NCBI GenBank assembly: GCA_028875245.1
Contig: JAPPEU010000045.1
Span: 1 to 42,410, forward strand
Direction of reading: 5' to 3'
Length of the DNA: 42,410 nucleotides
Source of the DNA: Chloroflexota bacterium
GTDB lineage: Bacteria > Chloroflexota > Anaerolineae > Aggregatilineales > Phototrophicaceae
Shown here: positions 17,321 to 34,052 of the stretch, one piece after another
Position numbering within the stretch: position 1 is the stretch's first letter
Layout of the letters: each line of letters starts with the position of its first letter
Notes under the pieces: generated by a model
What the model saw: only the letters and a program-made list of their open reading frames with translations
Database searches by the model: none
Told to the model about the DNA's origin: nothing
Made by a program: the position numbers and the translations under genes

Positions 17321-17324
17321 TCGT

Positions 17325-18074: not shown

Positions 18075-18104
18075 CGCCCCTCCTCTCCCATGAAAGCTGC
18101 GCCA

Positions 18105-18144
18105 AGTGTACGACTGCCCTCTGCCCTTGTCAAATCGTGACAAG
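18105..18144 (-). promoter_or_regulatory. SDR-amidase promoter with an operator-like inverted repeat
   Basis: On the minus strand, TTGACA (18128-18133), 17 bases and TACACT (18105-18110) form a sigma-70 promoter. The perfect inverted repeat CTTGTCA-AATCG-TGACAAG (18126-18144) covers the -35 box. A dimeric repressor bound there would block transcription. The regulator is unknown. Confidence 0.55.
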
Positions 18145-18249: not shown

Positions 18250-18365
18250 AAGGCTCCAAAATAGGAAGAACACAAAAAGCGCAGAGATTTTTGACAAGAT
18301 CGCAGGCAGCTTAAATCCTCAACAATAGACACTCCCCAACTGCCAATATGGAAGAGGTGAAGCCG

Positions 18366-19157
18366 ATGAGGATTGCCTGCTGCATCTGGGCGCTGAGCGG
18401 AAGCGAGACTGAAATCCTGCGGCAGGTCCGCGATATCGGATTCGACTGCATCGATATTCAGCCGACGCATCTACAGTCGCTGGAGAGCCGGCTCTTGGCG
18501 CAGGAACTCGGATTGCGCGTTTCTTGCGTCGGCGCTTCATTCGGTCTGCCAGCGGGCGCTTCGCTCGATCATCTGGACGAAAGCCTGCGCCTGGCCGCCA
18601 TTGACCATGTCGGGACGGCCATCGAACAGGCGGCGGAAATCGGCGCTGGCACGGTCTACGTCATTCCCGGCAATAATCCCGCGCCGGCCGCAATCGAAGA
18701 ATTTGAGAAGTCGCTCGTCAGTCTGGCTGATGTCGCCGCCGCCCATGCGGTCAAGCTCGCGATCGAGCATTTCCCGGGCACCGCATTGCCCAGCGCCGGC
18801 GAAACGCTCGAGTTGATACGCGCCCTCGGGCATGACAATCTCTACCTGCTTTACGACAGCGGGCATATCCAGATGTCAGGCGAGGAGCCGGCCTCTGTGA
18901 TCACAAATGCGGGCGATAGACTGGGCTACGTCCACTTTGACGACAACGATGGCCTCAGCGACTTGCACTGGTCCTTGCTCGACGGGGTGATGACCGAAGA
19001 ATCGCTGGCGGCGACGCTGCGCGCGCTGGATGCGGTTGACTACCAGGGCGCCGTAAGTCTCGAGTTGAGCCCGGCGCTTGCGAACCCGGCCCGGGCATTG
19101 GGCGGCAGCCGCGATATTCTCATGCGCGCCCGGCACCAAGGCTGGATGAACGGATGA
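18366..19157 (+). CDS. Xylose-isomerase-like TIM-barrel protein (sugar epimerase/isomerase family)
   Basis: The 263-residue protein has the AP-endonuclease-2/xylose-isomerase-like TIM barrel. It starts MRIACCIWAL. Likely metal ligands are in AIEHFPG (E at about 135), YDSGHIQ (D and H at about 165-168), VHFDDNDG (H at about 192) and VSLELSP near the end. Members are sugar or inositol-derivative epimerases, isomerases or dehydratases; the substrate is unknown. The ATG at 18366 is chosen because AGAGGTG lies just before it, although an in-frame ATG exists 18 bases earlier. It lies 127 bases before the LacI regulator gene and is probably part of the same catabolic island. Confidence 0.85.
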   Translation: MRIACCIWALSGSETEILRQVRDIGFDCIDIQPTHLQSLESRLLAQELGLRVSCVGASFGLPAGASLDHLDESLRLAAIDHVGTAIEQAAEIGAGTVYVIPGNNPAPAAIEEFEKSLVSLADVAAAHAVKLAIEHFPGTALPSAGETLELIRALGHDNLYLLYDSGHIQMSGEEPASVITNAGDRLGYVHFDDNDGLSDLHWSLLDGVMTEESLAATLRALDAVDYQGAVSLELSPALANPARALGGSRDILMRARHQGWMNG

Positions 19158-19224
19158 GGATCTGACAACTCGTCAGAACAAAGCCTGGTTGTTTCAATAT
19201 TTTGCAAATTTCTGGCAATTTGTT

Positions 19225-19273: not shown

Positions 19274-19284
19274 ACAAGCCTCGA

Positions 19285-20325
19285 ATGAAGGAAAGACATC
19301 CTCGCTACAAGGGGCAACCCACTATACGTGACATCGCTCGTAAAGCCGATGTTTCGATATCGACTGTTTCGCGCGTATTAAACGAACATCCCTACGTCGA
19401 CTCCCACACGCGAAAGGCGGTCTGGAAAACCGCGACAGAATTGGATTATCCGATGTCGCGCTTGCGGGGGCAGGCGAGCAAACCACAGCGCACGATGGCG
19501 TTTCTGTCCGCCGTCGCCAACAGTCATTCTGAAGGGTTGCCAGCTTTAACCGGCGGTATTGAACAGTTAATCGTTCGCGGCGCGCAATCCGTCTTTGAAG
19601 ACCAGCGCATCGCAACGCATATCTACCAGTCCTGCGCCGACATTGACCAATTGCAGGCATTAATCGATACGAATCACATCAGTGGCTTGATATTCCTGGG
19701 TGGCACCTTTGACAGGGCGCTATTGGCTTGGCTTCAGGAGCAGTCTATTCCATTTGTGACGGCCGGCGGGCATGCTTATCCGCTTGCAGCAAACTCAATC
19801 ATGGCGAACTATGTGCAGGGCATGGTCTCGGCGATCGAACATCTAGTGTCTGGCGGGCGGCGGCATATCTGCCTGGTGAATGGGCCGAAGACAACCAATA
19901 CCAGCAATGAAAAATACTGGGGATTCCGCCTGGCGCTCTGCCTGCACAACTTACCCTGCGAAACTTATCAGTCGACGCGTGGATCGAGCTTTGATGTGGA
20001 GAGTGGTTTTATTGCCACGCTTCGTTTGCTTGCCCTCGGTCATCCGGTTGACGCAATCGTCTATGCTGATGACGGCATGGCGGTTGGCGGCCTAAAAGCG
20101 ATAAAGGAATCGCAGCGTAAAGTGCCAGACGATATTTCTGTGATCGGCTTTCATAATTATGATTTTGCCCGCTTCGCCGAGCCGGCGTTGACCACAATAG
20201 GTTTCGACATGCAGATGATGGGGCGGCTGGCGGCGTTGCGCTTGTGCAACTTGATGGACGGCGCGCCCGACGACCCCAATGTCATGACGGTGTCAACTCG
20301 GTTGATCGTTAGGGACTCCACGTGA
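19285..20325 (+). CDS. LacI-family transcriptional regulator
   Basis: The 346-residue protein has an N-terminal LacI helix-turn-helix (about residues 13-33, TIRDIARKADVSISTVSRVL) and a hinge region. A type-1 periplasmic-binding-protein effector domain (about 68-345) follows, with the SVIGFHNYDFARFAEPALTTI segment typical of the family. It most likely represses the adjacent sugar-transport run and is released by a sugar ligand. The operator at 19225-19245 over its own promoter suggests autorepression. The ATG has almost no leader and no Shine-Dalgarno site, but it starts at the usual distance before the HTH. Confidence 0.95.
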   Translation: MKERHPRYKGQPTIRDIARKADVSISTVSRVLNEHPYVDSHTRKAVWKTATELDYPMSRLRGQASKPQRTMAFLSAVANSHSEGLPALTGGIEQLIVRGAQSVFEDQRIATHIYQSCADIDQLQALIDTNHISGLIFLGGTFDRALLAWLQEQSIPFVTAGGHAYPLAANSIMANYVQGMVSAIEHLVSGGRRHICLVNGPKTTNTSNEKYWGFRLALCLHNLPCETYQSTRGSSFDVESGFIATLRLLALGHPVDAIVYADDGMAVGGLKAIKESQRKVPDDISVIGFHNYDFARFAEPALTTIGFDMQMMGRLAALRLCNLMDGAPDDPNVMTVSTRLIVRDST

Positions 20326-20428
20326 GAATGAATATCGTGATCAAAGCAGCGAAGGAGAAGATGGTGTAGCCAAGGGCGCAAGCATCGGTCTCACCAGCCA
20401 GATGGCGCCAGGTAATTTCGCAGACTTA

Positions 20429-20440
20429 CTGAAACTTTTC
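20429..20440 (+). promoter_or_regulatory. Possible LacI half-site before the ABC operon
   Basis: CTGAAACTTTTC at 20429-20440 shares CTGAAAC and TTC with the right half of the operator at 19225-19245, but no matching left half is present. It lies 30 bases before the start of the binding-protein gene. The 145-base gap shows no clear -35/-10 pair, so this is weak. Confidence 0.25.
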
Positions 20441-20470
20441 GTTCACAACCTCTACTGAAAGGAGAATCTT

Positions 20471-21799
20471 GTGTTTGGTAAACGGACACTCCTGTTGACA
20501 ATTCTGGCGATTATTGTTGCGCTCGTGCCCCTGTCACTGACGGCGACGGCGCAAAACCCCGACTGCGAAGGCGATGTGACTCTCACTTACTGGCATCACT
20601 GGGGCGGCAACCGCATCCCGCTGCAAGAACATCAAGTCGCCGCTTTTGAAGATGCCCACCCCGGCATCTGCGTCGACAACATCTTCCTGCCCTGGGACAA
20701 CCGCCTGCAGAATCTGCTGGCTGCCATCGCCGCCGGCAACCCGCCCGATGTAACCATGTTTGGGCGGCAGGACCTGCCCTTCTTCGCCGCAACCGAATCC
20801 ATCATCCCGCTGGACGATTACATGGCTGCCGATGGCGTCGACCCCGCCATTTTCCACCCTTCGGAATTTGCCGGCACGCAGTTCAATGGCAAGACCTGGC
20901 TGCTGCCTCTTCCCGGTGGCGGCGCTTACAACATCGTCTGGTACAACACCGACCACTTCGCCGAAGCTGGCATCGAGAGCTTCCCCGAGACTTGGGACGA
21001 AATGCTTGAGGCGGCGGAGACTCTGCGTGTAGGCGATGGCGAATTCCTGGAGCGCATCGGCTTGAATGCGCAATCAACAAGCGGCACGAGCGCTTTCCAC
21101 ACCTGGTACAATGCCAATGGCGGCGACTGGATTACGCCCGACCTGCGCACGATTACCATCAACAACGAGGCGGGCGCGCAAGCGCTTGAGTTCATGCAAG
21201 CCGTTGCCGAAATCAATTACGGCATCGAAGAAGTGAACGCCTTCTGGGAGATGGCGGGTGAGTTCGACCAGGGTCCGCTGATCCAGGGTCTGGTTTCTAT
21301 GGAGACTAACGGCTCCTGGACGCTGTTCCAAGTCGAAGATCATGCCGAGTCGCTGAACTACGATGTCGCGCCGATTCCCTATGGACCGAGCGGCAGCGCC
21401 GACCGGCGGGGTTCCGCGCACGGTGGCTGGGGCTATATGGTTCCCAAGAATGCCGCGCACCCGGATGAAGCCTGGAAGCTGGTCAAGTGGCTGACCACCG
21501 AAGTCGAAGGGGATGGCGCATGCTGGTTTATACAGCAGCAGCAGCGTCCCTCGCCGCTGGTGGAATGCAACGGCTATGAGAAGGATGGCGTTGTGCATCC
21601 GCGGGCGGAAGCGCTCCTGGGCGTAGCCGCGCTGGATTATCTGGTGCCCGTCTCGCCAGTGCAGCCCGAAGCCAACCAGATCATCAACCGCATGGTAGAA
21701 GATGTGCTCTTCGGCGATAGTTCAATCGAAGACGCCTTGGCCAGCGCCGAAGCCGAAATCCAGGCGCTGCTTGACGCCTTCTGGGAAGAATACGGCTAA
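20471..21799 (+). CDS. Sugar ABC transporter substrate-binding protein
   Basis: The 442-residue extracytoplasmic protein belongs to the type-1 sugar-binding cluster (MalE/UgpB-like). A signal peptide (basic MFGKR, hydrophobic to about residue 25) ends with an ATAQ-type cleavage site. No lipobox cysteine is seen; in a monoderm cell one would be expected, so an uncleaved anchor is possible. Hallmarks are LTYWHHWGG (about 37-45), DVTMFGRQDLPFF and WYNTDHFAEAGI. The GTG start is supported by AAAGGAG eight bases before it. It heads a run with two permeases, sulfatase and oxygenases, so the ligand is probably a (sulfated) sugar or oligosaccharide. Confidence 0.93.
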   Translation: MFGKRTLLLTILAIIVALVPLSLTATAQNPDCEGDVTLTYWHHWGGNRIPLQEHQVAAFEDAHPGICVDNIFLPWDNRLQNLLAAIAAGNPPDVTMFGRQDLPFFAATESIIPLDDYMAADGVDPAIFHPSEFAGTQFNGKTWLLPLPGGGAYNIVWYNTDHFAEAGIESFPETWDEMLEAAETLRVGDGEFLERIGLNAQSTSGTSAFHTWYNANGGDWITPDLRTITINNEAGAQALEFMQAVAEINYGIEEVNAFWEMAGEFDQGPLIQGLVSMETNGSWTLFQVEDHAESLNYDVAPIPYGPSGSADRRGSAHGGWGYMVPKNAAHPDEAWKLVKWLTTEVEGDGACWFIQQQQRPSPLVECNGYEKDGVVHPRAEALLGVAALDYLVPVSPVQPEANQIINRMVEDVLFGDSSIEDALASAEAEIQALLDAFWEEYG

Positions 21800-21816
21800 A
21801 CCCGGTGAAACTCCCT

Positions 21817-21840
21817 CCCCTTCCCGACTTTGGGAAGGGG
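21817..21840 (+). terminator. Hairpin between binding-protein and permease genes
   Basis: CCCCTTCCC and GGGAAGGGG form a perfect 9-bp stem with a 6-base loop. No T tract follows, so it is more likely an mRNA-stabilising or attenuating structure that raises binding-protein levels over permeases, as in maltose-type operons. Confidence 0.5.
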
Positions 21841-21860
21841 ATAGGGGCGGTGGAGAGAAT

Positions 21861-22823
21861 ATGGCAACAGCATTTGGTTCGCAATTCAGCGCCTTGCGCG
21901 GGCGGCGGCGAGAACGATGGAGCGATCTCTCGCCCATGCGCAAACGCGAAGCCAAGTTCGGCTTTCTATTCATCGCCCCATGGTTCATTGGCGTTTTGCT
22001 CTTTGCGCTCTTTCCTTTCGTCGCATCCTTTGTCTTGAGCTTCACCAAATACAATATCGTGGCGCCGCCAAGATGGGTGGGCGCCGAACATTACGAGCAC
22101 ATCTTCACCGATGATCCGCTGTTTCTAAAATCACTCAGAAACACCGCCGTCTATGTTGGCGGCTCGGTCGCCATACGCATTGTGCTGGGCTTTGCCCTGG
22201 CGCTCTTGCTCAACACCAAGGTGCGCTTCCTTGGTTTGTGGCGCACGCTCTTCTACGTGCCCTCGGTCGTGCCCATCGTCGCGCTCTCGATTGTCTGGCT
22301 GTATGTGCTGAATGCCCGCGCCGGCTTGCTCAACTGGTTCCTGGGCTTCTTCGGCATATCGCGCATCCGCTGGTTCGCCGACCCCGACTTCGCCATGCTC
22401 GCCTTCCTCATCATGAGCACGACCTGGGTCGGCGTGACGATGGTGATTTTCCTGGCTGGCTTGCAGGGCATCCCGGAGGAGTATTACGACGCGGCCAAGA
22501 TTGACGGCGCCAACATGGTCCAGCGCTTATGGCGCGTCACCATCCCGCTGATGACGCCAACGATCTATCTTAATGTCCTCATCAATATCATCGGGGCATT
22601 CCAGGTCTTCACGCAGGTATTCATCATGACCGGGGGCGCCCCGCGCGACGCGACGCGAACTTATGTCTTGCATCTCTTTGACCACGCGTTTCAATACCTC
22701 CCGCCACAGATGGGTTATTCATCGGCGCTCGCCTGGATCCTGTTCATGATTATTTTCGCCTTCACCGCGGTCATCGTCGCCTCATCGCAGCGCTGGGTCT
22801 TTTATCAAGGCGGGGAGGAATAG
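21861..22823 (+). CDS. Sugar ABC transporter permease (MalF/UgpA type)
   Basis: The 320-residue inner-membrane subunit has six main hydrophobic helices, and the first cytoplasmic stretch contains SPMRKREAKFGFLFIAPW. The EAA loop, which docks with the ATPase, is EYYDAAKIDGANMVQRLWRV at about residues 205-224, followed by TIPLMTP. It belongs to the carbohydrate uptake CUT1 class. The ATG at 21861 is supported by GGAGAG; the frame also extends 53 codons back into the binding-protein gene and is not used. The partner permease starts five bases after the stop. No ATP-binding subunit is encoded nearby. Confidence 0.95.
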   Translation: MATAFGSQFSALRGRRRERWSDLSPMRKREAKFGFLFIAPWFIGVLLFALFPFVASFVLSFTKYNIVAPPRWVGAEHYEHIFTDDPLFLKSLRNTAVYVGGSVAIRIVLGFALALLLNTKVRFLGLWRTLFYVPSVVPIVALSIVWLYVLNARAGLLNWFLGFFGISRIRWFADPDFAMLAFLIMSTTWVGVTMVIFLAGLQGIPEEYYDAAKIDGANMVQRLWRVTIPLMTPTIYLNVLINIIGAFQVFTQVFIMTGGAPRDATRTYVLHLFDHAFQYLPPQMGYSSALAWILFMIIFAFTAVIVASSQRWVFYQGGEE

Positions 22824-22828
22824 CAGCG

Positions 22829-23713
22829 ATGTCAGCAATTGCTACCCAAAGCGCCAACCTCCGCAGCGACGCGCTCACCCGCGCGACCCGCATCATCGGG
22901 CGCATTCTCCTCTACGGCATTCTAATTTTCATGAGCCTGTGGTTTATCGCGCCTTTGTTTTGGATGTTCATGTCCTCATTCATGCCTTTGGAACAGGTTG
23001 GCGTTTTCCCCGTTGAATGGATCCCACGCGTATGGCAGCCGGAAAACTACACCGACGCGCTGAAGTTCTGGAAGTTCGGCACGACATTTCGCAATACGAT
23101 GATCATTACGATCTTCTCGCTCGTCGGCGACATTGGCTCGTGCACGCTGGTGGCTTACGGCTTCGCCCGCTTCCGCTTCCCTTTCAGAGATACCCTCTTC
23201 TTGATTCTGCTGGCGACGCTGATGCTGCCCTTCGCCGTTCGTCTGATACCAGTATACGCCGCCTATGACGCCATCGGCTGGATCGACACCTTCTATCCTT
23301 TGATCGTCCCGAACTTCTTTGGCAACGCCTTCTACATCTTTATCTGTCGGCAATTCTTCCTGGGCATTCCGCAAGACCTGCTTGACGCGGCCAAAATCGA
23401 CGGCGCCAGCGAGTTCCGCATCTTTACTCAAGTGATGATTCCGCTCGCCAAGCCCGCCATCGTCGTGATCGCTATTCTGAGCTTCCAAAATAGCTGGAAT
23501 GATTTTCTTGGTCCGCTGATTTATTTGAAAGATCCGGACCTGCATACGCTCGCCATCGGTCTGTACAAGTTCACATCGCTGCCCGGCCAAGGCGGGATCT
23601 ACAACCAGCAGATGGCGGCCTCCGTCATGATGGTGCTGCCTGTGCTCATAGTCTTTTTCATGTTCCAAAAGCAGTTTATCCAGGGCGCCAATCTCTCCGG
23701 CATGAAAGGCTGA
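22829..23713 (+). CDS. Sugar ABC transporter permease (MalG/UgpE type)
   Basis: The 294-residue second permease subunit of the CUT1 transporter has about six hydrophobic helices. Its EAA loop is DLLDAAKIDGASEFRIFTQV at about residues 184-203, followed by MIPLAKPA. It pairs with the upstream permease and would need an ATPase such as an MsmK/UgpC homologue encoded elsewhere. The start lies five bases after the previous stop, and the sulfatase gene starts 11 bases after its own stop, giving a tightly packed operon. Confidence 0.95.
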   Translation: MSAIATQSANLRSDALTRATRIIGRILLYGILIFMSLWFIAPLFWMFMSSFMPLEQVGVFPVEWIPRVWQPENYTDALKFWKFGTTFRNTMIITIFSLVGDIGSCTLVAYGFARFRFPFRDTLFLILLATLMLPFAVRLIPVYAAYDAIGWIDTFYPLIVPNFFGNAFYIFICRQFFLGIPQDLLDAAKIDGASEFRIFTQVMIPLAKPAIVVIAILSFQNSWNDFLGPLIYLKDPDLHTLAIGLYKFTSLPGQGGIYNQQMAASVMMVLPVLIVFFMFQKQFIQGANLSGMKG

Positions 23714-23724
23714 GACGCGCGGCG

Positions 23725-25029
23725 ATGGCTTCACGACCGAACATTCTCTTTGTGCTGGTCGATCAACTTGGCGCGCGCTGGCTGCCGACTTATGGATTCA
23801 CATCGGTAAGGGCGCCACAGTTGAATCGTTTCGCCGGCGAAAGCACTGTGTTCGAGCGCGCTATCACCACCTCGCCGGTTTGTACGCCCTACCGCGGCTG
23901 CCTGCTCAGCGGGCGCTATCCCTCACAGACCGGCGTATTGCGGAATGGGCAATCGTACCCAGCTGATCACAAGAGCCTCGCCGATTATCTGAACGAAGCC
24001 GGCTACGAGACGCATTATGTCGGCAAGTGGCACTTGAGCGGCGCGCCGCAAGAGAACCGCTGGGTGCCGCCCGAGAAGCGCGCCGGCTTTCAGCATTTTG
24101 TCGGCTGGGAAAGCCATCATGTCGATCATCATGCCGGGCTTATCTGGCGCGATGATCCGGACGAGGCAATCGAAATGCCCTGCCACGAAACCGACGCGCT
24201 GACAGACATTGCGATGCGGCAATTGGCGCAGGCGGCGGCCGACGCGAATCCTTTTTTCATGCTGCTGTCATATCAAGCGCCGCACCCGCCCTGTTCGCCG
24301 CCGCGCGCTTTTCTGCAGCAATACGAATCGCGTGATCTGTTGGCCGAGCCGAACATCGATCCTGCAGCCTGGTTCAGGCATGAGGACTGGAAGGCGAATT
24401 ACGACCTGCAACGATTCCGCGAACTCTACTTTGGCGAGATCAGCCACCTGGACGCGGCCTTCGGTAGATTGCTGCGCCGGCTGGATCAACTGGATCTGCG
24501 CGAGAATACGCTTGTGATTTTCACATCCGATCACGGCGAGATGGCGGGCGCGCATGGCCTGTTTGGCAAGGGCGTCATGTACGAAGAGGCGCTGCATGTG
24601 CCGCTCATCGCGCGGGCGCCGGGGCAATCACGCGGAAGGCGGACGCGGCAGCTGGCGGCGACCATCGACCTGCTGCCCACCATGCTCGACTTCGCGGAAG
24701 GCGAAAGCGACGGGATGGCCGAGGGCATGTCGCTGCGCTCGCAGATAGACGGCGGCGCGCCTAAGGGCGAGCGAGTCGCAATAAGCGAATACCAGAATTT
24801 CTGCGCCACGACGCAGCGCTGGAAGCTGATCACGCGCGGGCGAACGCTGGAACCGGCCGCGCTGTACAACCGCGTCGATGATCCCTGCGAGCTGCGCGAT
24901 CGACTGCATGATCCGGCTTGTATGACGCCGCGGAGAAGATTGAGCAAGGCTTTGAAACGATGGCGCGAACATGCGGTCGCGCCGAACAGAAATGAAAGCG
25001 AGCATCAATGGCAGCAAGTCAAAATCTGA
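23725..25029 (+). CDS. C-type sulfatase
   Basis: The 434-residue enzyme belongs to the formylglycine-dependent sulfatase family (alkaline phosphatase fold). The active-site motif CxPxR is C53-T-P-Y-R57; C53 must be oxidised to formylglycine by an FGE or anSME, neither of which is in the window. Metal ligands are probably D13-Q14 (LVDQ) near the N-terminus and D-H in FTSDHGEMAG (about 268-277). GKWHLSG (about 98-104) is also a family motif. It would hydrolyse a sulfate ester, probably on a sugar imported by the adjacent transporter. No signal peptide is seen, so it is probably cytoplasmic. It overlaps the next gene by 22 bases. Confidence 0.95.
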   Translation: MASRPNILFVLVDQLGARWLPTYGFTSVRAPQLNRFAGESTVFERAITTSPVCTPYRGCLLSGRYPSQTGVLRNGQSYPADHKSLADYLNEAGYETHYVGKWHLSGAPQENRWVPPEKRAGFQHFVGWESHHVDHHAGLIWRDDPDEAIEMPCHETDALTDIAMRQLAQAAADANPFFMLLSYQAPHPPCSPPRAFLQQYESRDLLAEPNIDPAAWFRHEDWKANYDLQRFRELYFGEISHLDAAFGRLLRRLDQLDLRENTLVIFTSDHGEMAGAHGLFGKGVMYEEALHVPLIARAPGQSRGRRTRQLAATIDLLPTMLDFAEGESDGMAEGMSLRSQIDGGAPKGERVAISEYQNFCATTQRWKLITRGRTLEPAALYNRVDDPCELRDRLHDPACMTPRRRLSKALKRWREHAVAPNRNESEHQWQQVKI

Positions 25030-26393
25030 GCGCGGGCGGCGTTTATCCTCATCTGGCGCTGAGCGCCGGGCTGGGTCCACCACGCAGCGAATGCGGCGTC
25101 GGCGCCATGATGGCCTGGGCGGGGAAGCTCTGGCTCGTCACCTACGTCTCACATAAATCCGCCAGCGGCGTCGGCACCGGCCTCTACACCATCAACGAGC
25201 GGCTGGAGATGGAAAAACATCCCGCCAGCTATGTCGGCACCTATACCAATCGCATGGCGCACTGGGAATCCAATCAGATGATCATCGGTCCTTATGTTGT
25301 TGACTCTGAGGGAAACGCGCGCGCCGTTGAAGACCTGCTGGAAGTTCGCATTTGCTCAACCATGCGCCACCTGACAGACGCGGAGAACATGGTCTACATG
25401 CTCGGCATGGAAGGCGAATTCTATGAGATGGATGTGCGCACGCTGGAGACGCGCTTTCTGGCTGACCTCACCATCGAGCTTGGCGTGCCCGACCACAAGT
25501 ATGCGCATTTCAAAGCGGCTTACAGCAACTTCGGCCGCGTCGTCGTCGCCAACAACAGTTACGACGAACGCGACTTCACCGGCGCTGAAGCGGCGGGCAG
25601 GCTGGCGGAATGGGACGGCGAGCGCTGGACGATCATTGAGCGCAACCCCTTCATTGAGGTCAACGGCCGCGGGGACTTCGCCGGCACGATCTTCGCCATG
25701 GGCTGGGACAAGCGCTCGGCAATCCTCCAGGTTTACACTGATGCGGATGGCCAATGGAAGCGATACCGCCTGCCGAAGGCGAGCCATTGCTTTGACCACA
25801 TGTGGCAGACGGAGTGGCCCAGAATTCGCGAGGTCGACCATGAACGTTTTCTGATGGATTGCCACGGGATGTTTTATGAGCTATCGACCTGGGCCTACGA
25901 AAATCACATTTGGGGAGTGCGCCCGATATCCACGCATCTTTGGGTCCATGGCGATTTCTGCGCCTGGCGCGGGATGCTCGTTCTCGGCGCGGACAATGCC
26001 AGCCCCCATAACGGCGCCAACCACCTGGCCGGCGAGCCGCAATCGGGTTTGTATTTCGGCAAGACGGACGACCTCTGGGGCTTTGGCAAGCCGGCTGGTT
26101 GGGGCGGCGTCTGGTGGGAGGATGAAGTAAGCGCGGACGAAACCTCCGACCCCTATCTGATGACCGGCTTCGACAAGAAAGTGCTGCATCTCAGCAACGA
26201 GGGCGACTCGGCAGCGAAGTTTGTGCTGGAAGTTGATTTCCTCGGCAATGGCAAATGGAAGGCATACGACAGCTTTGAAGTGGCCGCGCAGGGATATGCG
26301 CACCATGCGTTTCCCGCCGGCTACAGCGCCCACTGGGTTCGCCTGCGCAGCGAGAATGGCTGTGTCGCTACGGCCTATTTCACGTATACTTGA
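25008..26393 (+). CDS. Conserved protein of unknown function, probably all-beta
   Basis: The 461-residue protein is not assigned to a known enzyme family. It is rich in repeating strand-turn patterns with aromatic and Asp/Gly turns (SNQMIIGPYVVDSEGN, MVYMLGMEGEFYEMDV, RFLMDCHGMFYELST), suggesting a beta-propeller of about six blades. A final 80-residue beta-sandwich (about 380-461) may follow. Several His/Asp/Glu residues are conserved-looking (HCFDHMWQTEWPRIREVDHE), so a sugar-processing active site is possible. There is no signal peptide. The start overlaps the sulfatase stop by 22 bases, indicating translational coupling and a shared pathway. Confidence 0.7.
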   Translation: MAASQNLSAGGVYPHLALSAGLGPPRSECGVGAMMAWAGKLWLVTYVSHKSASGVGTGLYTINERLEMEKHPASYVGTYTNRMAHWESNQMIIGPYVVDSEGNARAVEDLLEVRICSTMRHLTDAENMVYMLGMEGEFYEMDVRTLETRFLADLTIELGVPDHKYAHFKAAYSNFGRVVVANNSYDERDFTGAEAAGRLAEWDGERWTIIERNPFIEVNGRGDFAGTIFAMGWDKRSAILQVYTDADGQWKRYRLPKASHCFDHMWQTEWPRIREVDHERFLMDCHGMFYELSTWAYENHIWGVRPISTHLWVHGDFCAWRGMLVLGADNASPHNGANHLAGEPQSGLYFGKTDDLWGFGKPAGWGGVWWEDEVSADETSDPYLMTGFDKKVLHLSNEGDSAAKFVLEVDFLGNGKWKAYDSFEVAAQGYAHHAFPAGYSAHWVRLRSENGCVATAYFTYT

Positions 26394-26428
26394 TTTGATC
26401 AAAGCGGCGGAGATCCAGGAGGACGAAG

Positions 26429-27283
26429 ATGATTAATGGCATTAACAAGCTGACAAACGAACAACGACAACAATTCCGCGATGAAGGCTATTTGATCGTC
26501 CGCAATGCGCTCAATGAAGACAGAATCAGCCGCCTCATCGAAGCGGGCGACCGACTGATCGCAACCGATGAGCGATTCAATCGCTTTGTGCAGGGCGGCG
26601 GCATCTATGATGGCTTCCGCAATTGCATCACCATGGACGACGCCTACATCCCCCTGCTGACCAACGATATCACACTGCCGCTGGTGATTCAGTTGCTGGG
26701 CTCCAACCTGCAACTGTCGACCAGCCATCTCATTCATCGCCATCCTGATCCGCCGGGCACTTCGAATACTGTGAGGCGGCCCGGCTGGCACCGCGATGGC
26801 GGGGGCATCTCACGCGATCTTGGCGAGGCCAACTTTCCGCGCATGGGCTTGAAGTGCGCCTTCTATCTGACCGACTTGAGCGAGCCGAATTCCGGCGTCA
26901 CCATGCTGGCGCCGGGCAGCAACCAACTGACTGAACGGATCGAGATTCCCGAAGGCGAAGTTGACCCCGCCAACGCGCTGGAGCCGCTGTTGAATCCGGG
27001 CGATTGCGTCATTTTCGAATACCGCACCTGGCATGCTGGCGCGCCGAATTTCACGGACAGAACTCGCAAGGCGGTCATGATCGGTTATTGCTACCGCTGG
27101 CTGAAGCCGATGGATTATGTCAAGCAGGATTCGTCATTTGTGGACAAGCTAAGCGATATCGAAAAATACCTGGCCGGAGAAGAAGTTGATGACACACCGG
27201 AGTTTCAGCCGAGCGGCGGTTTCAATCCGCTGAACGAATGGTGCGAAAAACATGGTGTTGAACAAGACCATTTGGGGTTGTAA
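26429..27283 (+). CDS. Phytanoyl-CoA dioxygenase (PhyH) family protein
   Basis: The 284-residue protein is an Fe(II)/2-oxoglutarate oxygenase. The iron triad is complete: H121-x-D123 (GWHRDGGG) and H202 (TWHAGAPN). R211 or R213 is placed to bind 2-oxoglutarate. The FRDEGYLIVRNAL stretch (about 16-28) is the typical start of the family. Such enzymes hydroxylate small molecules; the substrate is unknown but probably belongs to the same pathway as the neighbouring sulfatase and flavoprotein. The ATG follows a strong AGGAGG site, 35 bases after the upstream stop. Confidence 0.93.
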   Translation: MINGINKLTNEQRQQFRDEGYLIVRNALNEDRISRLIEAGDRLIATDERFNRFVQGGGIYDGFRNCITMDDAYIPLLTNDITLPLVIQLLGSNLQLSTSHLIHRHPDPPGTSNTVRRPGWHRDGGGISRDLGEANFPRMGLKCAFYLTDLSEPNSGVTMLAPGSNQLTERIEIPEGEVDPANALEPLLNPGDCVIFEYRTWHAGAPNFTDRTRKAVMIGYCYRWLKPMDYVKQDSSFVDKLSDIEKYLAGEEVDDTPEFQPSGGFNPLNEWCEKHGVEQDHLGL

Positions 27284-27321
27284 TACCAAGCCAGGCCGGA
27301 GAGCAGAAAGCAGCGTGTCAG

Positions 27322-29610
27322 ATGAAGCAAGACAACCAAATCCCAAGGATGTTGAGCGAGCCATTCTCGCCCACAGTCCGTCAGCCCAAGACCCTGCGCA
27401 TAGACTCTGATCTGGTCATCGTCGGCGGCGGGCTGGCGGGCGCCTGCGCGGCGATCACCGCGGCGCGCGCCGGTATCAAGGTCGCGCTGGTGCAAGATCG
27501 GCCTGTGCTGGGCGGCAACGCCAGCAGTGAAGTTCGCCTGTGGGCATTGGGCGCGACCTCGCACATGAATAACAACAATCGCTGGGCGCGCGAAGGCGGC
27601 GTCATCGACGAAATCCTGGTCGAAAACATGTATCGCAACAAAGAAGGCAACGCGCTCATATTTGATACGATCCTGCTGGAAAAAGTCATTGACGAAGACA
27701 ACATCACCCTGCTGCTGAACACGGCCGCGGTCAGCGTCAGCAAATCCGACGGCGAAACGATCGAATCCGTCACCGCCTTTTGCAGCCAGAATTCGACGCA
27801 ATACGAGCTCTTTGCCCCGCTATTCTGTGATGCCTCCGGCGATGGCGTCGTCGCCTTTCAAGCGGGGGCCGCCTTTCGCATGGGCGCCGAATCCCGCGAA
27901 GAATTCGGCGAGAAGTTCGCGCCAAGCGAGGAATACGGCTACCTGCTGGGGCATTCGATTTACTTCTATACCAAAGATATCGGCGAACCGGTCAAGTTCG
28001 TGCCGCCGAGTTACGCGCTCGAAGACATCACGCAGATCCCGCGCTTCCGTAGTTTCAACACCGCTATTGATGGCTGCCGCTTGTGGTGGATCGAATACGG
28101 CGGCCGCCTGGATACCGTGCACGAGACCGAGACGATTAAGTGGCAGCTTTGGAAAGTCGTTTACGGCGTCTGGAATTACATCAAGAACTCGGGCAAATTC
28201 CCCGATGCCGAGACGCTGACGCTGGAATGGGTCGGGCAGATCCCGGGCAAACGCGAGAGCCGGCGCTTCGAGGGCGACGTCATGATGACCCAGCAGGATG
28301 TCATCGAGCAGCGGGGGCATTACGACGCCATCTCCTTCGGCGGCTGGTCGATTGATTTGCACCCGGCCGATGGCGTCTTCAGCGAATTGCCCGGCTGCGA
28401 TCAATGGCATGCCAAGGGTGTGTATCAGGTGCCCTATCGCACCCAGTACAGCCGGAACATAGGCAACCTTTTCATTACCGGGCGCATCATGAGCGCCTCG
28501 CATGTCGCCTTTGGCTCGACCCGCGTCATGCTGACCTTGGCTTGCGCCGCGCAATCCGTCGGCATGGCGGCCGCCCACTGCGCCAAACGAGGGCTGCTGC
28601 CGCGCGATATCGCCGCGCCGCAAAATGTCAAACTCCTGCAGCGCGACTTGCAGCGCGTCGGCGGCTACATCCCGCAATTCAGGCTGGATGACGAGGCGAA
28701 TCTCGTCCGGCAGGCGACCGTGAACGCCTCCAGCAAACTCTGCCTTGAGAGGCTGCCCGACGATGGACCGCGGCGCCCGCTCGAACGACCCTATGCCCAA
28801 ATGCTGCCCATGCGCCGAGGCCGCGTCCCGCGCCTTACAATCACGGTCGACGCTGCGGAAGAAAGCCGGCTCGAAGTACAGCTGCGTCAAAGCTCGAAAC
28901 GCGATAATCACAGCCCGGACGTCATCCTGAAGACGTTGAGCTTCGACTTGCCGGCGGGGGAGAATCAGTCGGTCCACCTTGACTTCGACCAGATGATCGA
29001 TGATTCGCGTTATATCTTCGTCTGCGTGATGGAGAACCCGGCCATTCGCTTGCATTTGAGCGATATGCGCGTCACCGGTTTGCTCGCCCTGCAATATTGG
29101 CGGGATCAATCGCCGCCCGTTGATATCGGCGTTGAGTCCTTCGAATTCTGGACGCCGCCACGTCGACCGAAAGGTCAGAATATGGCGCTGACTATTGCGC
29201 CGCCGCTGAACGGTTTCGAGCCGCAGAATATATGCAATGGCCTTGCCCGCCCGGTGGCCGAAGTGAACGCCTGGGTGGCCGACCCCGCTGATGAGGTGCC
29301 GACGCTGGACATCAAATGGATTGCGCCGCAGAGCATCAGCCGGGTAACCCTCATGTTTGACACCGACTTCGATCATGCCATGGAGACAGTCACCCGAGGC
29401 CATCCGGAAGACGTCATGCCTTTCGCAATCAAGCATTATCGGCTGCGCGACGGCGGCGGCAAAATGCTTGCCGAAGTGACCGACAATCACCAAACGGTGA
29501 ACCGGATTGAGTTTGATGAGCCAATCGAAACCGACCATCTGCGAGTCGAAATCGTCGCGAGCCAAAGCACGGCGCCGGCGGCAGTCTTTGCGGTACACTG
29601 TTACGAATAG
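27322..29610 (+). CDS. FAD-dependent oxidoreductase with C-terminal beta domains
   Basis: The 762-residue protein has an FAD_oxidored (PF12831-type) domain at about residues 25-440. The Rossmann motif VIVGGGLAGACAAITAARAG (about 32-51) and GGNASSEVR (about 64-72) are clear. A downstream FAD-contact stretch NLFITGRIMSASHVAFGSTR is at about 381-400. The remaining 320 residues form probable beta-sandwich domains. The last one (about 630-760) looks like a discoidin/F5-8 C-type carbohydrate-binding fold (ISRVTLMFDTDFDH, NRIEFDEPIETDHLRVEI). It probably oxidises a sugar-like or hydroxylated compound. It sits between two PhyH-type genes with 25-38-base gaps, so all three are likely in one transcript. 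Confidence 0.88.
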   Translation: MKQDNQIPRMLSEPFSPTVRQPKTLRIDSDLVIVGGGLAGACAAITAARAGIKVALVQDRPVLGGNASSEVRLWALGATSHMNNNNRWAREGGVIDEILVENMYRNKEGNALIFDTILLEKVIDEDNITLLLNTAAVSVSKSDGETIESVTAFCSQNSTQYELFAPLFCDASGDGVVAFQAGAAFRMGAESREEFGEKFAPSEEYGYLLGHSIYFYTKDIGEPVKFVPPSYALEDITQIPRFRSFNTAIDGCRLWWIEYGGRLDTVHETETIKWQLWKVVYGVWNYIKNSGKFPDAETLTLEWVGQIPGKRESRRFEGDVMMTQQDVIEQRGHYDAISFGGWSIDLHPADGVFSELPGCDQWHAKGVYQVPYRTQYSRNIGNLFITGRIMSASHVAFGSTRVMLTLACAAQSVGMAAAHCAKRGLLPRDIAAPQNVKLLQRDLQRVGGYIPQFRLDDEANLVRQATVNASSKLCLERLPDDGPRRPLERPYAQMLPMRRGRVPRLTITVDAAEESRLEVQLRQSSKRDNHSPDVILKTLSFDLPAGENQSVHLDFDQMIDDSRYIFVCVMENPAIRLHLSDMRVTGLLALQYWRDQSPPVDIGVESFEFWTPPRRPKGQNMALTIAPPLNGFEPQNICNGLARPVAEVNAWVADPADEVPTLDIKWIAPQSISRVTLMFDTDFDHAMETVTRGHPEDVMPFAIKHYRLRDGGGKMLAEVTDNHQTVNRIEFDEPIETDHLRVEIVASQSTAPAAVFAVHCYE

Positions 29611-29635
29611 TGGAGACGAGAAGGAACATAATCAA

Positions 29636-30472
29636 ATGCAGGTTACAGAGCGAGAACGCTACTTCTTTGATCTCAACGGTTTTCTGCTGCTGAAGGGCGC
29701 GCTGTCCAAGGAGGAAGCGGCCGAGATCAACGCCGCCATTGACGCGCTGCTGCCGATCCAGCCGGGCGAATGGAAGGGCTACGTCCATGGACACACTTAC
29801 GGCGATGACGATGGTGTGAATATGCAGCAGATCTACGAAGGCGGCGAGCCCTTCGAAAAGCTCATAGACCACCCGTCCTGGATCGAAAAAGTCAAGTGCT
29901 TTGTCGGCGGCGCCGATACCTTTGATTACAATCACGGTCCGCTCTTTATCGATGAATGTTTCGCCAACGTCCGCGGTCCCGGCGAGGCGATCGGCTTGCA
30001 TTCCGGCGGCCACGATGGCACAAAGCGCACTCAGTTTCGTTACTATAATGGTCGCTTCCACTGCGGACAGATCAACATTTTGATGGCTTTGACCGATATC
30101 GGACCCGGCGATGGCAACACAATGGTGGTGCCAGCCAGCCACAAAGCCCACTTCCCGCATCCGGACGAGGGCAAACATGGCATGCATCGCGATGTCGCGT
30201 CGGTTGACCACGTCGAAGGCGCGGTCAACGTATATATGGAAGCCGGCGATGTAATCCTCTTTGTCGACGCGCTCTGCCATGGCTCGGCGGAACGGGTCAA
30301 CGCCGGCGAGCGGCGCATCATCGTCTTCCGTTATGGGCCCTCTTGGGGCAACTTCCGGTTCGGCTACCAGGTATCGGATGAGCTAGCCGAGCGCTTGACG
30401 CCCGAGCGTTTGCAGATCGTGCGGCCGAAGCACCCGCTCGTGCCGGGGCTAGATCGCAGCCGCTACGCCTGA
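29636..30472 (+). CDS. PhyH-like protein lacking the canonical HxD motif
   Basis: The 278-residue protein resembles the PhyH dioxygenase family (FFDLNGFLLLKGALS at the start, PASHKAHFP, then DALCHGSAERVNAGERR). At the place of HxD is H122-S-G124, so the metal-binding carboxylate appears replaced by glycine. H215 and a following arginine (about 226-227) are kept. A later H184-R-D186 is too close to H215 to be the canonical site. The ATG at 29636 follows AAGGAA; a 43-codon in-frame upstream extension is rejected. It ends the plus-strand run and overlaps the 3' end of the convergent dehydratase gene by 10 bases. Confidence 0.85.
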   Translation: MQVTERERYFFDLNGFLLLKGALSKEEAAEINAAIDALLPIQPGEWKGYVHGHTYGDDDGVNMQQIYEGGEPFEKLIDHPSWIEKVKCFVGGADTFDYNHGPLFIDECFANVRGPGEAIGLHSGGHDGTKRTQFRYYNGRFHCGQINILMALTDIGPGDGNTMVVPASHKAHFPHPDEGKHGMHRDVASVDHVEGAVNVYMEAGDVILFVDALCHGSAERVNAGERRIIVFRYGPSWGNFRFGYQVSDELAERLTPERLQIVRPKHPLVPGLDRSRYA

Positions 30473-31617
30473 AGCCGCCGAAGTCCGTCTTCATCCAGTT
30501 CCACCCCGAGCCCGGCGCTTCTCGGTACCGCGTAATGCCCTTCTTCACAGGTCAGCGGTGTTTTGAGCAGCAGGTTCGCAATCTCAAATACCGGCGGCTG
30601 ATACTCAAGCAGGTACAAGTTGGGTATCGCCGCGGCGGCATGAATGGACGCGGCAATGCAGACGCCCAAGCCCACGCTGAGGTGCGGCGCCATCTTCACA
30701 TTGAAGGCTTCCGCCATCGCTGCAATCTTGACCAACTCCGAAATGCCGGCGCGCCCGACATCGGGCTGCAGGATATCGGCCGCCTTCTGCACAAGCCAGG
30801 GGCGAAATTGATAACGACTGCGTTCCGTCTCCCCGTGGGCGATCGGCACGGCAACGGCCGCTGCCAGCTGCGCATGCGACTCCACGTCCTCCGGATTGAT
30901 CGGCGCTTCAAAAAAGCCGACGTCCAGGTCGGTCAGCGCATGACCCAACTGAACCGCCTCGTCCAGCGAATAGACCCAGTGCGCGTCCAACAGCAGCGTC
31001 GCGCCCGGGCCCAGGCTGTCGCGCAGAGCCTGTACGCTATCCCTATCAGCGCGAACGCCATGGCCCGCCGCCAGCTTGAAGGCATTGAAGCCCCCCTCGA
31101 CATACTCCAGCGCCAGCTTGACCCGCTGCTCCGCCGACGGGCGCGGCAGGCCGGAGACATAGCAGGGGACGCGCTCTCGATAAGCGCCGCCGAGCAGCTT
31201 GTAAACCGGCTGACCCAGCAGCTTCCCGCGCAGGTCCCATAGCGCGATATCGCAGGCGCTGATGGCATCCAGCATGAAACCGCCGTAATAACCCCGTTCG
31301 CGCATGAGATCGTACATCAGGTTCCACAGGGCGTTGCCATCAAGCGGATCGCGACCGAGCAGCACGGGCGTCAGCAGTTGATCGATGATGGCGCAGACCA
31401 CTTCCGGCGCGACCGGCGCCAGCGCCTCGCCCCAGCCGATGACGCCGTCAGCGGTGGCGATCTTGACGAAGGCGGTCTCGAAGTACGCGGAATAGAGCGC
31501 GCGGTATGGCGGGCGGGTGAAGTAGGCCGGCGGGTCGGCCGCCGCCGGGATGCCGCCAAGGTAGGCTTCGTCGCGTTTGATCCGAACCGGAATCGCTTCG
31601 ACAGTGGTGACGCGCAT
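30463..31617 (-). CDS. Enolase-superfamily acid-sugar dehydratase (mandelate racemase subgroup)
   Basis: The 384-residue protein has the capping domain (about 1-125) and the TIM barrel of the MR/MLE family. Metal ligands are D211 (LLLDAHW), E237 (FFEAPI) and E263 (AHGE). A His-Asp dyad is present as D286 (QPDVGRAG) and H312 (MAPHLS), and H213 follows D211 in a DxH pattern. The spacing of D, H, E, E, D, H closely resembles D-galactonate dehydratase, but the substrate is not determined. It probably dehydrates an acid sugar to a 2-keto-3-deoxy acid. The start follows a strong GGAGGGAG site. The divergent gene is a DHDPS-family lyase, its logical partner. Confidence 0.92.
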   Translation of the reverse strand: MRVTTVEAIPVRIKRDEAYLGGIPAAADPPAYFTRPPYRALYSAYFETAFVKIATADGVIGWGEALAPVAPEVVCAIIDQLLTPVLLGRDPLDGNALWNLMYDLMRERGYYGGFMLDAISACDIALWDLRGKLLGQPVYKLLGGAYRERVPCYVSGLPRPSAEQRVKLALEYVEGGFNAFKLAAGHGVRADRDSVQALRDSLGPGATLLLDAHWVYSLDEAVQLGHALTDLDVGFFEAPINPEDVESHAQLAAAVAVPIAHGETERSRYQFRPWLVQKAADILQPDVGRAGISELVKIAAMAEAFNVKMAPHLSVGLGVCIAASIHAAAAIPNLYLLEYQPPVFEIANLLLKTPLTCEEGHYAVPRSAGLGVELDEDGLRRLQA

Positions 31618-31725
31618 GGCTATCTCCCTCCGCAGTGGCTGGATACAATGGATTTTGAAGGTTATAGTCTAAGAGATGCGGGAATCTTCCGCAATTAGTT
31701 GAGCAAACCGGGGAGGCGCGTCGAC

Positions 31726-32631
31726 GTGTTAGCCGGCATTTATCAGATTCTGCAGACGCCATTTAACGACGGCGGCGCGATCGATTGGGAGAGTTTTGCG
31801 GACCAAATCGAATACTGCCTGGCGGCGGGCGTACATGGATTGGTCGCGCCGGCCCTTGCCAGCGAGTTCTTTACGCTCAGCGACGCCGAGCGGCGAGAAG
31901 TGGTCGAATTCGCCAGCGGCGCAATCGCGGGGCGCCTCCCCTTCATCGTCGGCGTACAAGGGCTGAACCAGCGGCTCGCGCTTGAATTCGCCGCGCACGC
32001 TTGCGAGCAAGACGCCACCGCGCTGATGGCGATGCCGCCCTATTTGCGCAAGGCTTCAAAGGCGGAGTTGCGGCGATATTACCGGGCTCTGGCGAAATTT
32101 GACCGGCCGTTGATCATTCAGAATGCGCCCGCGCCGATTGGCACGCCGCTATCACCGCGCGAGCTGGTCGAGCTGTTGGCGGCCGAAGACAACATTCTCT
32201 ACATCAAGGAAGAGACGAATCCGATTCTGCAGCACATCAATGAGATAATCGCGCTGGATACGGGCAGTTGCGCCGGTGTGTTCGGCGGCGCCAACGGCAC
32301 CTACCTGATCGACGAACTGAAGCGGGGCGCTTGCGGCAATATGCCGGCCGGTGGCCTGGTGGATGCGCAAGTCAAGATTTACAACTTGTATCGCGCGGGC
32401 CGCGTTGAAGAGGCGGAAAGCATCAGCCACAAGCTGCTGCCACTGCTGAACTATGCGACGGTGTATGGCGTTTCCTTCCACAAGCATGTGATGTGGCGGC
32501 GCGGCGTCCTGCGCTCGCCATTCGCGCGGGACCCGCAAAAGATCAGCCTGAATGCCGATGATATCCGCGCGGTCGAAGGCCTGTGGCCGCTGGTAGCCGG
32601 GTACACGCTCGCCGAGTATCCCTTCGTTTAG
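31726..32631 (+). CDS. DHDPS/NAL-family lyase (possible 2-keto-3-deoxy-sugar-acid aldolase)
   Basis: The 301-residue TIM-barrel protein belongs to the dihydrodipicolinate synthase/N-acetylneuraminate lyase family. The Schiff-base lysine is K161 (ILYIKEETNP). The position of the usual catalytic tyrosine (YNxP) is occupied by Q132 (IIQNAPAP), and the TGE motif is ALASEFF. The GTG at 31726 is preferred over an upstream TTG because GGGGAGG precedes it. It is divergent from the acid-sugar dehydratase and plausibly cleaves the product to pyruvate and an aldehyde. Loss of the tyrosine argues for unusual chemistry or a non-aldolase role. Confidence 0.88.
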   Translation: MLAGIYQILQTPFNDGGAIDWESFADQIEYCLAAGVHGLVAPALASEFFTLSDAERREVVEFASGAIAGRLPFIVGVQGLNQRLALEFAAHACEQDATALMAMPPYLRKASKAELRRYYRALAKFDRPLIIQNAPAPIGTPLSPRELVELLAAEDNILYIKEETNPILQHINEIIALDTGSCAGVFGGANGTYLIDELKRGACGNMPAGGLVDAQVKIYNLYRAGRVEEAESISHKLLPLLNYATVYGVSFHKHVMWRRGVLRSPFARDPQKISLNADDIRAVEGLWPLVAGYTLAEYPFV

Positions 32632-32636
32632 CGACA

Positions 32637-34052
32637 CTAGTAGGTCCAGGTTCGCGGCAGCGGACGCTCCATCGCCAGCAGTCTCGTGAGCAGCAGTCTG
32701 CGGCATTCCGCAAGCGAGTCTCCGCAGCTGTCGTCTTCGGACACATCATGGTAGGCGCCGGGATCCTTCGCCAGCTCCCAAAGACATTCGCGCCCGTCAG
32801 CATGAATCAAATACTGAAAGCGGGGAGTGCGCAGGCTTTTCCAGCCCGCCGCTTCGGTCAGGGCGACGTCTTTTTTGCGCGCGCCGACGCCAGTCATCGC
32901 GCTGATCAGGCTTTCGCCCTGCATGTATGACGGCCTCTGAATGGCCGCCAGCTCCAGCAGCGTCGGCACGATATCGACAGACTCGACCAGCCTGTCATAG
33001 GTTTCAACCTGCCGGGCGCCGGGGGCGTCAATCACAAGCGGAACGCGGCTGACCGCATCGGGCGCGGGATAACCCTTGCCGAAGCGCAGATGCTCGCCCA
33101 GCCACTCGCCGTGATCCGATGTGAAGACGACGATGGTTTCATCGCGCCGTCCCGCCGCCTCCAGCGCGTCCAGGATGCGCCCGACATAATGATCAACTTC
33201 GCTGATCATCGCGTAGTAGCCGTGCTTGGCCGCGCGCAGCTGGCCATCGGAAAACAGCGCCTTTGAATCGCTCGGCCGCCGCTCGTCGACTTCCGGCGGA
33301 AACGTGGGCGTCGATAAACCGGCCGGGTCATACATATCAAGATATTTCTGGGGGACGATCCAGGGCGCGTGCGGCGAATAGAAGCCGGCGATGCAAAGGA
33401 ATGGCTCAGAGCCCGCCGCCTCAATGAAGTCAATCGTTCGCTCCGCGACGAACGCGCTGTGCGTCAGGTGATCATCAGGGGCGAAGGGAATCGCGCCTTT
33501 ATTGTCGTGCCTGCCGGTCGGCTCGCCCCGATGCGTGATGCCGTCCTTGATGCCCATTGCCCGCTGCCAGACGGCGGTGTTGGGCGGCAATCCCGCGCTG
33601 ATGTGATCCATCTGCTCCGGCGCCCCCCGCCGCACCCAGGCGCGATAGGCGTCTTCGTAGACACCGGGCTCATCGGCGATCTCCAGATGATCGAAGCCAT
33701 AGGCGGGATGCGGCAAGCTGTGATCGCGGTTGGCGTGCGGCAGAAAGTGCAGCTTGCCGATGTTGGCCGTCCGGTAGCCGTATTGCTTGAGCAGGCGCGG
33801 CAGTGTCACGAGATCTTCGGGCACTGGCACGCCCATCTGCGTGATGCCCAGCGTCGACGGATAGCGGCTGGAAAGCATACTGACGCGGCTGGGCATGCAG
33901 ACCGGATTCTGCACAAAATGATGGCTGAAGTTCGTGCCCCGCGCCGCCAGCGCATCAATATTCGGCGTGATGATTTCCGCGTTGCCATTGACGCCGAGTG
34001 CGTCCCAGCGCTGCTGATCGGTGTAGAGGATGAGCATGTTTGGACGCTTCAT
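32637..34052 (-). CDS. C-type sulfatase
   Basis: The 471-residue protein is a second formylglycine-dependent sulfatase. The site CxPxR is C52-M-P-S-R56 (PVCMPSR). Metal-binding D-Q at the N-terminus (YTDQQRWD) and FTSDHGEWLGEH (about 312-323) are clear. GKLHFLP (about 99-105) is in the place of GKWH. No signal peptide is visible. The predicted start, the ATG at 34050-34052, is preceded by GAGAAAGG. It is on the opposite strand to the first sulfatase, convergent with the DHDPS-family gene (5-base gap), and divergent from the phosphorylase. It probably removes sulfate from another position or sugar of the same polymer. Confidence 0.95.
   Translation of the reverse strand: MKRPNMLILYTDQQRWDALGVNGNAEIITPNIDALAARGTNFSHHFVQNPVCMPSRVSMLSSRYPSTLGITQMGVPVPEDLVTLPRLLKQYGYRTANIGKLHFLPHANRDHSLPHPAYGFDHLEIADEPGVYEDAYRAWVRRGAPEQMDHISAGLPPNTAVWQRAMGIKDGITHRGEPTGRHDNKGAIPFAPDDHLTHSAFVAERTIDFIEAAGSEPFLCIAGFYSPHAPWIVPQKYLDMYDPAGLSTPTFPPEVDERRPSDSKALFSDGQLRAAKHGYYAMISEVDHYVGRILDALEAAGRRDETIVVFTSDHGEWLGEHLRFGKGYPAPDAVSRVPLVIDAPGARQVETYDRLVESVDIVPTLLELAAIQRPSYMQGESLISAMTGVGARKKDVALTEAAGWKSLRTPRFQYLIHADGRECLWELAKDPGAYHDVSEDDSCGDSLAECRRLLLTRLLAMERPLPRTWTY

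Follow-up and report, generated by a model that had tools for sequence, protein, structure and literature searches.

Organization of the gene cluster

This work concerns a gene cluster of a Chloroflexota bacterium, located at positions 20471-30472 of a stretch of 42,410 nucleotides (hereafter, the window; positions 1 to 42,410 of contig JAPPEU010000045.1, assembly GCA_028875245.1, 4.2 Mb in 88 contigs). The cluster comprises eight genes, all on the plus strand, which encode in this order the substrate-binding protein and the two permeases of an ATP-binding cassette (ABC) importer, a sulfatase, an uncharacterized protein of 461 residues, and two proteins of the PhyH family, PhyH1 and PhyH2, with a flavin adenine dinucleotide (FAD)-dependent oxidoreductase between them (Table 1).

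Regarding its layout, an initial annotation of this DNA had described the eight genes as closely spaced, and reading of the sequence confirmed it, with gaps of 5-61 bases and a single overlap. The widest gap, 61 bases, lies between the binding protein (stop at 21799) and permease 1, whose start was reset by reading to the ATG at 21861 from the 21702 of the mechanical list of open reading frames (ORFs); 5 bases separate the two permeases and 11 permease 2 from the sulfatase, whose gene overlaps that of the uncharacterized protein by 22 bases; gaps of 35, 38, and 25 bases then follow up to PhyH1, the FAD enzyme, and PhyH2, respectively, the last with its start reset to the ATG at 29636 from a TTG at 29507. 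The stop codon of PhyH2 (30472) lies in a tail-to-tail overlap of 10 bases with a minus-strand gene of the enolase superfamily. Judging from the spacing, the overlap, and the synteny reported below, the eight genes are likely one operon; scans of positions 19100-31700 found promoter-like (6 versus 5.1 expected) and terminator-like sites (14 versus 12.5 expected) at chance level, so that they neither support nor rule out a single transcript.

As for the importer, its sugar type, already proposed in the initial annotation, agrees with the SBP_bac_1 match of the binding protein (147 bits), the BPD_transp_1 match of both permeases, and three OB_MalK matches in the genome. SusC and SusD domains were absent from the 30 window proteins scanned, thus the cluster is not a Sus-type polysaccharide utilization locus.

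Table 1. Features of the cluster and of its surroundings (positions refer to the window; related loci are defined in the next section)
Feature	Position	Strand	Basis or remark
Sugar-type ABC substrate-binding protein (SBP_bac_1), signal-peptide-like hydrophobic N-terminal segment	20471..21799	+	Pfam 147 bits, hydropathy
ABC permease 1 (BPD_transp_1)	21861..22823	+	Pfam
ABC permease 2 (BPD_transp_1)	22829..23713	+	Pfam; best NCBIfam matches UgpE and GlcU, both under cut-off
Formylglycine-type S1 sulfatase, C-x-P-x-R, without hydrophobic N-terminus	23725..25029	+	Pfam Sulfatase, 183 bits
Uncharacterized 461-residue protein, predicted beta-propeller and C-terminal beta-sandwich	25008..26393	+	Predicted model
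PhyH oxygenase 1 (PhyH1)	26429..27283	+	PF05721; H-x-D...H
FAD-dependent oxidoreductase, PF12831 at residues 30-442; C-terminal part without family	27322..29610	+	Pfam
PhyH oxygenase 2 (PhyH2), H-x-G...H type	29636..30472	+	PF05721; nearest solved fold HygX
LacI-type regulator, upstream of operon	19285..20325	+	Matched in 9/36 related loci
AP_endonuc_2 (sugar isomerase/epimerase-like) protein	18348..19157	+	Conserved flank, 27/36 loci
Short-chain dehydrogenase	17325..18143	-	Conserved flank, 26/36 loci
Enolase-superfamily (MR_MLE) sugar-acid dehydratase-like protein	30463..31617	-	Conserved flank, 27/36 loci
DHDPS-family aldolase/dehydratase-like protein	31699..32631	+	Conserved flank, 25/36 loci
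Second S1 sulfatase	32637..34052	-	Conserved flank, 22/36 loci

Conservation of the locus

Contigs were scanned with a 37-row alignment of the 461-residue protein, which returned 363 relatives; the best 80 loci were kept and compared by tblastn with 20 window proteins, and a locus was counted as related when at least one further core gene matched at 50% identity or more. By this measure 36 of the 80 loci are related, and 31 of the 36 have enough flanking sequence to be judged: all 31 keep the order and the strand of the core genes they hold, in accordance with the synteny that the initial annotation had asked to be checked in other genomes. The eight genes are all present, with the sulfatase at full coverage, in 17 of these 31 loci, including one (L017) with an internal stop in the sulfatase; nine further loci differ only by the lack of a full-length sulfatase, so that 26/31 match all seven other genes. 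Sulfatase fragments in L006, L012, and L018 were not counted as present (counting them gives 20/31), while for the other genes presence means a match, regardless of an intact frame. One PhyH is absent or replaced in L028, L032, and L033, and two of the judged loci, both from Jiangella, hold just the gene of the uncharacterized protein and that of the flavoprotein.

At the level of whole genomes, the uncharacterized gene was matched in 33 of the 34 genomes of the genus (in G470 as two pieces), in 4 of 64 other genomes of the family (in G449 as fragments at contig ends only), and in 37 of the 154 genomes of the order. The locus is real and conserved across the genus, and the conservation of the gene set in related loci answers the objection that it might lack counterparts elsewhere. 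The operon had been put forward as a candidate undescribed one, and searches of the open-access literature found no account of this gene set, a coverage outside which most subscription journals fall.

The sulfatase as an accessory gene

The sulfatase was surveyed in 35 Chloroflexota loci that have the junction between permease 2 and the uncharacterized gene (the window, 32 named loci, and two more of the genus). A frame of at least 380 residues occurs in 23 of them; in one (L017, 8700-10019) a stop that follows codon 203 interrupts the full-length gene, if this is not an assembly error, and in 11 the gene is missing, with 127-281 bases between the two neighboring genes. Inspected by eye, these intervals hold a clear sulfatase N-terminus in six loci (L006, L012, L013, L018, L021, and L027), a degenerate one in three, and none in two. 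Because such stubs remain, the pattern argues for losses and not gains, recombination being a further possibility. Some stubs also seem by eye to retain a C-terminus-like tail, perhaps as a way to preserve the translational coupling of the next gene. Deletions that invariably stay in frame with the original stop codon were considered and rejected, given that 5 of the 11 end at an offset from the uncharacterized gene known from intact loci, or six with L024, which has no recognizable stub.

A tree of 32 loci, built from the uncharacterized protein and the flavoprotein (1223 columns) and including nine of the losses, needs seven changes to explain them, and its well-supported branches by themselves force seven; the loss label is not clustered on the tree beyond what shuffles give (126/500 as low). 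In addition, among nine genes compared, both permeases being left out, the sulfatase has the lowest median identity, 0.67, versus 0.88 for the binding protein, 0.84 for PhyH2, 0.83 for both the uncharacterized protein and the flavoprotein, 0.80 for PhyH1 and the enolase-superfamily protein, 0.74 for the aldolase, and 0.72 for the second sulfatase.

Where present, the enzyme is an S1 sulfatase (183 bits), with C-x-P-x-R and the catalytic positions kept in 24/24 aligned rows, and the genome has two matches to the formylglycine-generating-enzyme domain, PF03781. By a crude hydropathy measure, a strongly hydrophobic N-terminus occurs in 0/24 sulfatase rows and in 28/30 rows of the binding protein, for which reason the sulfatase would be cytosolic. 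The genome holds 29 sulfatase-domain matches, so that desulfation could come from elsewhere, and nine loci carry an extra sulfatase-like gene located after PhyH1 and before the flavoprotein, three of them among the nine losers on the tree.

With the gene missing in 11 of 35 loci, broken in one more, and the other genes retained, desulfation, which the initial annotation had placed after import, is not a set step. The corresponding linear route, in which a sulfated sugar is imported, obligatorily desulfated by the operon sulfatase, and then oxidized, would account for the 23 long frames with their invariant catalytic positions, and the extra sulfatase-like gene of nine loci and the 29 matches in the genome would suit it too; it is improbable, since the absences, the tree with at least seven changes, and the lowest identity of all indicate a swappable accessory step. 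We infer instead that sulfate removal fits the operon to substrate variants and that its constant work is that of the oxidative genes. These natural losses could serve directly to test which of the steps is essential.

The two PhyH proteins and the flavoprotein

The succession PhyH-FAD-PhyH had been read as a series of oxidative enzymes, and by Pfam these are present: PhyH1 and PhyH2 match PF05721 with 53 and 70.1 bits (cut-off 22), and the flavoprotein matches FAD_oxidored, PF12831, with 306 bits (cut-off 27). The part that did not stand is the nature of PhyH2. In PhyH1 the canonical iron triad, H121, D123, and H202, is found in 32/32 rows of an alignment from a set that left out matches under 50% identity or 85% of the length. 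PhyH2 has no iron-binding carboxylate, the usual Asp being a Gly (H-x-G) in 121/121 rows, and because of this replacement it is not an ordinary PhyH oxygenase; another ligand may take the place of the carboxylate. H-x-G was also seen by eye in the 29 proteins shown for 30 wider loci, the window included. A separate motif check of PhyH proteins in fetched regions covered the copies that passed its cut-off, which those of L097, L098, and L102 and one of the two in L085 did not. Relatives of PhyH2 with H-x-G occur in several Chloroflexota families, and the genome of the window has a second one on contig 38 (L099, 1946-2785), with the motif as HMGG.

The nearest solved relative of PhyH2 is HygX, an oligosaccharide oxygenase, and the first of PhyH1 is EvdO2. 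The stretches of HygX aligned in these matches start downstream of the H-x-D site; its metal coordination is presumably unusual. The HygX and EvdO enzymes (PDB 4xca and 4xab) are linked to orthoester formation between sugars (PMC8234114; this and the other articles cited by PMC number are drawn on from excerpts). They make orthosomycin antibiotics, whereas the genes described here belong to an import cluster, and with 25% identity over the aligned part the reactions are not equated. As for the flavoprotein, its profile found no solved close relative.

The 461-residue protein

Even with an E-value limit of 10, Pfam gave no match to the uncharacterized window protein, which also lacks an NCBIfam match at 0.01 and a solved relative (best E-value 1.3); two of five relatives scanned alongside have Pfam matches below cut-off. 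It belongs to a large group, with 3208 homologues at an E-value of 1e-3 among 7997 scored, where the named sequences include members of Kiritimatiellae, Brocadiia, Lentisphaerae, and Phycisphaerae, and many of its polar residues are invariant across 81 rows. A metal site made of the invariant histidines was considered and left unclaimed.

Regarding its fold, the protein is predicted to be a propeller followed by a sandwich, in a model with a predicted local distance difference test (pLDDT) score of 79.9 that falls below 50 at residues 260-286, 309-315, 329-332, and 342-358. The first Foldseek match of the model is a GH43 enzyme (glycoside hydrolase family 43), with a template modeling (TM) score of 0.25 and with the model weak at 260-286 and 342-358; overall, the Foldseek and VIA matches are generic propellers, which place the protein in no family and argue against none. 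Profile self-comparison and autocorrelation detected no significant internal repeat (best E-value 0.011), so it is the predicted model that carries the propeller assignment.

Among twenty neighboring genes, hand-picked from loci other than those of the core set, are GH2 (in two Jiangella loci) and GH20 enzymes, esterases, a LacI regulator, and an ABC importer; three of the 20 have no Pfam family at an E-value of 1e-5. In the two Jiangella loci, L059 and L069, the uncharacterized gene adjoins a flavoprotein 59-61% identical to that of the window, and in L069 a GH2 beta-galactosidase-like gene comes after it. In an Opitutia genome (L056, 11852-15903), a sulfatase-like gene (25% by tblastn) and a glycyl-radical enzyme lie downstream of the uncharacterized gene.

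Flanking genes

Several genes beside the operon are conserved too, with counts in which loci ending early at contig ends were scored as misses (Table 1). The minus-strand stretch 11168-18143 carries genes for the dehydrogenase, an amidase, an L-lactate permease, and an aminotransferase, the first three of which have matches next to the operon in 26, 26, and 24 of the 36 loci; beyond the second sulfatase there are a glucan phosphorylase and an arabinofuranosidase. The putative sugar-acid genes owe their assignment to superfamily membership: the solved structures closest to the enolase-superfamily protein bear generic names, and the closest to the DHDPS-family protein is L-2-keto-3-deoxyarabonate dehydratase (3e-26). 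Non-phosphorylative sugar-acid pathways combine an aldonate dehydratase with an aldolase or dehydratase for the 2-keto-3-deoxy acid, and the flanking dehydrogenase, enolase-superfamily, and DHDPS-family genes resemble this set; the latter two miss the named equivalog cut-offs, and their tie to the PhyH operon is one of neighborhood.

Proposed function

The locus is of a known kind, that of ABC-linked glycan use, with an unusual oxidative core. It resembles the ABC-linked glycan loci with S1 sulfatases, known as general genome features of sponge Anaerolineae and Poribacteria (PMC6306507 and PMC3909097, as excerpted), in bringing together a sugar importer with sulfatases, a LacI regulator, and enzymes for carbohydrates; it differs from them in that the core has no recognized glycoside hydrolase and has instead two PhyH proteins around a flavoprotein, together with the unassigned protein. 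The reading preferred here, to which we assign a probability of roughly 45%, is that the cluster imports a sulfated or otherwise capped oligosaccharide and opens it oxidatively, not just by hydrolysis.

Starting from what is directly seen, namely gene content, order, conservation, the repeated absence of the sulfatase, and the H-x-G of PhyH2, a hypothetical pathway can be drawn. The binding protein and the two permeases would take up the substrate with the help of an ATPase whose gene lies elsewhere in the genome, and the presumably cytosolic sulfatase would strip sulfate, a step needed in some strains only. PhyH1, with iron and 2-oxoglutarate (2OG), might then hydroxylate the carbon to which a capping group is attached, causing that group to be released; the FAD enzyme might convert a sugar hydroxyl into a ketone, and PhyH2, with its HygX-related fold, might perform a second oxidation at the sugar. 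The propeller-like protein could bind or cleave the oxidized sugar, and the products would feed the flanking sugar-acid route of dehydrogenase, enolase-type dehydratase, and DHDPS-type aldolase. A model for PhyH1 is found in PHYHD1/FJS, PhyH enzymes that demethylate 2'-O-methyl nucleosides and thus remove a sugar methyl ether with 2OG, according to the excerpted text (PMC12709175); their substrate class differs, and the likeness lies in the reaction described.

A bolder version of the proposal is doubtful: an undescribed oxidative entry into glycans, in which the H-x-G oxygenase, its H-x-D partner, and the flavoprotein release or open capped sugars, the propeller-like protein founds a new cytosolic class of carbohydrate-active enzymes acting on the oxidized product, and the sulfatase is optional.

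Several findings weigh against the oxidative opening of a sulfated or capped oligosaccharide. The solved structures that best match the flavoprotein profile are confined to its first 140 positions; the enolase-superfamily and aldolase proteins fall under the NCBIfam cut-off of every family they matched; several of the 20 neighbors sampled outside Chloroflexota are unrelated to carbohydrates, namely pilus, secretin, ion exchanger, chemoreceptor, and peptidase genes. Likewise, with 11/35 loci devoid of the sulfatase, and with neither window sulfatase matched within the 21 kb of L024, sulfate need not belong to the substrate.

It is quite unlikely that the substrate is no glycan and instead a small sulfated or N-substituted osmolyte, similar to choline sulfate or ectoine: choline-sulfatase (TIGR03417) is the best NCBIfam match of the sulfatase and ectoine hydroxylase that of PhyH1, yet with 209.3 and 20.5 bits both miss their cut-offs (433.45 and 336.5 bits, respectively), the importer is of the sugar type, the conserved neighbors look like a sugar isomerase, an enolase, and an aldolase, and the window encodes a glucan phosphorylase and an arabinofuranosidase. 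Finally, that PhyH2 is a halogenase, or that the cluster builds a modified oligosaccharide instead of consuming one, is very unlikely: PhyH2 fits the motif rule of the 2OG halogenases (H-x-G/A...H), which have H-x-G in place of H-x-D, and an oligosaccharide oxygenase of a biosynthetic pathway is closest to it in fold, but H-x-G is reported for the hydroxylase AspH as well (both in the excerpted PMC10947486), PhyH2 scores 16.1 bits against the 226.3 required for the chlorinating enzymes of TIGR01762, the phosphorylase is the only glycosyltransferase among the 30 window proteins scanned, and the importer and the sugar-acid genes indicate catabolism.

Two poorly understood groups of proteins met here are large, the relatives of the 461-residue protein and those of the H-x-G PhyH2. 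If oxidative opening of capped oligosaccharides holds, the use of capped, hydrolysis-resistant glycans by these uncultured Chloroflexota would have an explanation. Many of the loci are presumably sponge-associated, as we take their isolate labels to mean. A sponge origin is suggested by these labels together with a G+C content near the 58-59 percent of sponge Anaerolineae, which, with Caldilineae, are described as carbohydrate-rich and enriched in arylsulfatases (PMC6306507). The proposal would also provide a sugar function for part of the PhyH genes abundant in sponge symbionts, such as the Poribacteria, where they exceed 1.9 percent of the genes and most copies have no function assigned in the part of the source available (PMC3909097).

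Additional observations

On the minus strand of the window, two long ORFs, at 780-2561 and 12418-14040, have no Pfam match at an E-value of 0.01, and the second overlaps a plus-strand ORF of 531 residues. A second cluster exists in the same genome (G000, contig 62, 46000-62000; L082), where a sulfatase and an FAD-PhyH-FAD succession on one strand are followed by a sugar-type binding protein and a permease, the latter two labeled by eye; the whole spans 16 kb, with genes on both strands, and its PhyH resembles PhyH1 and has H-x-D.
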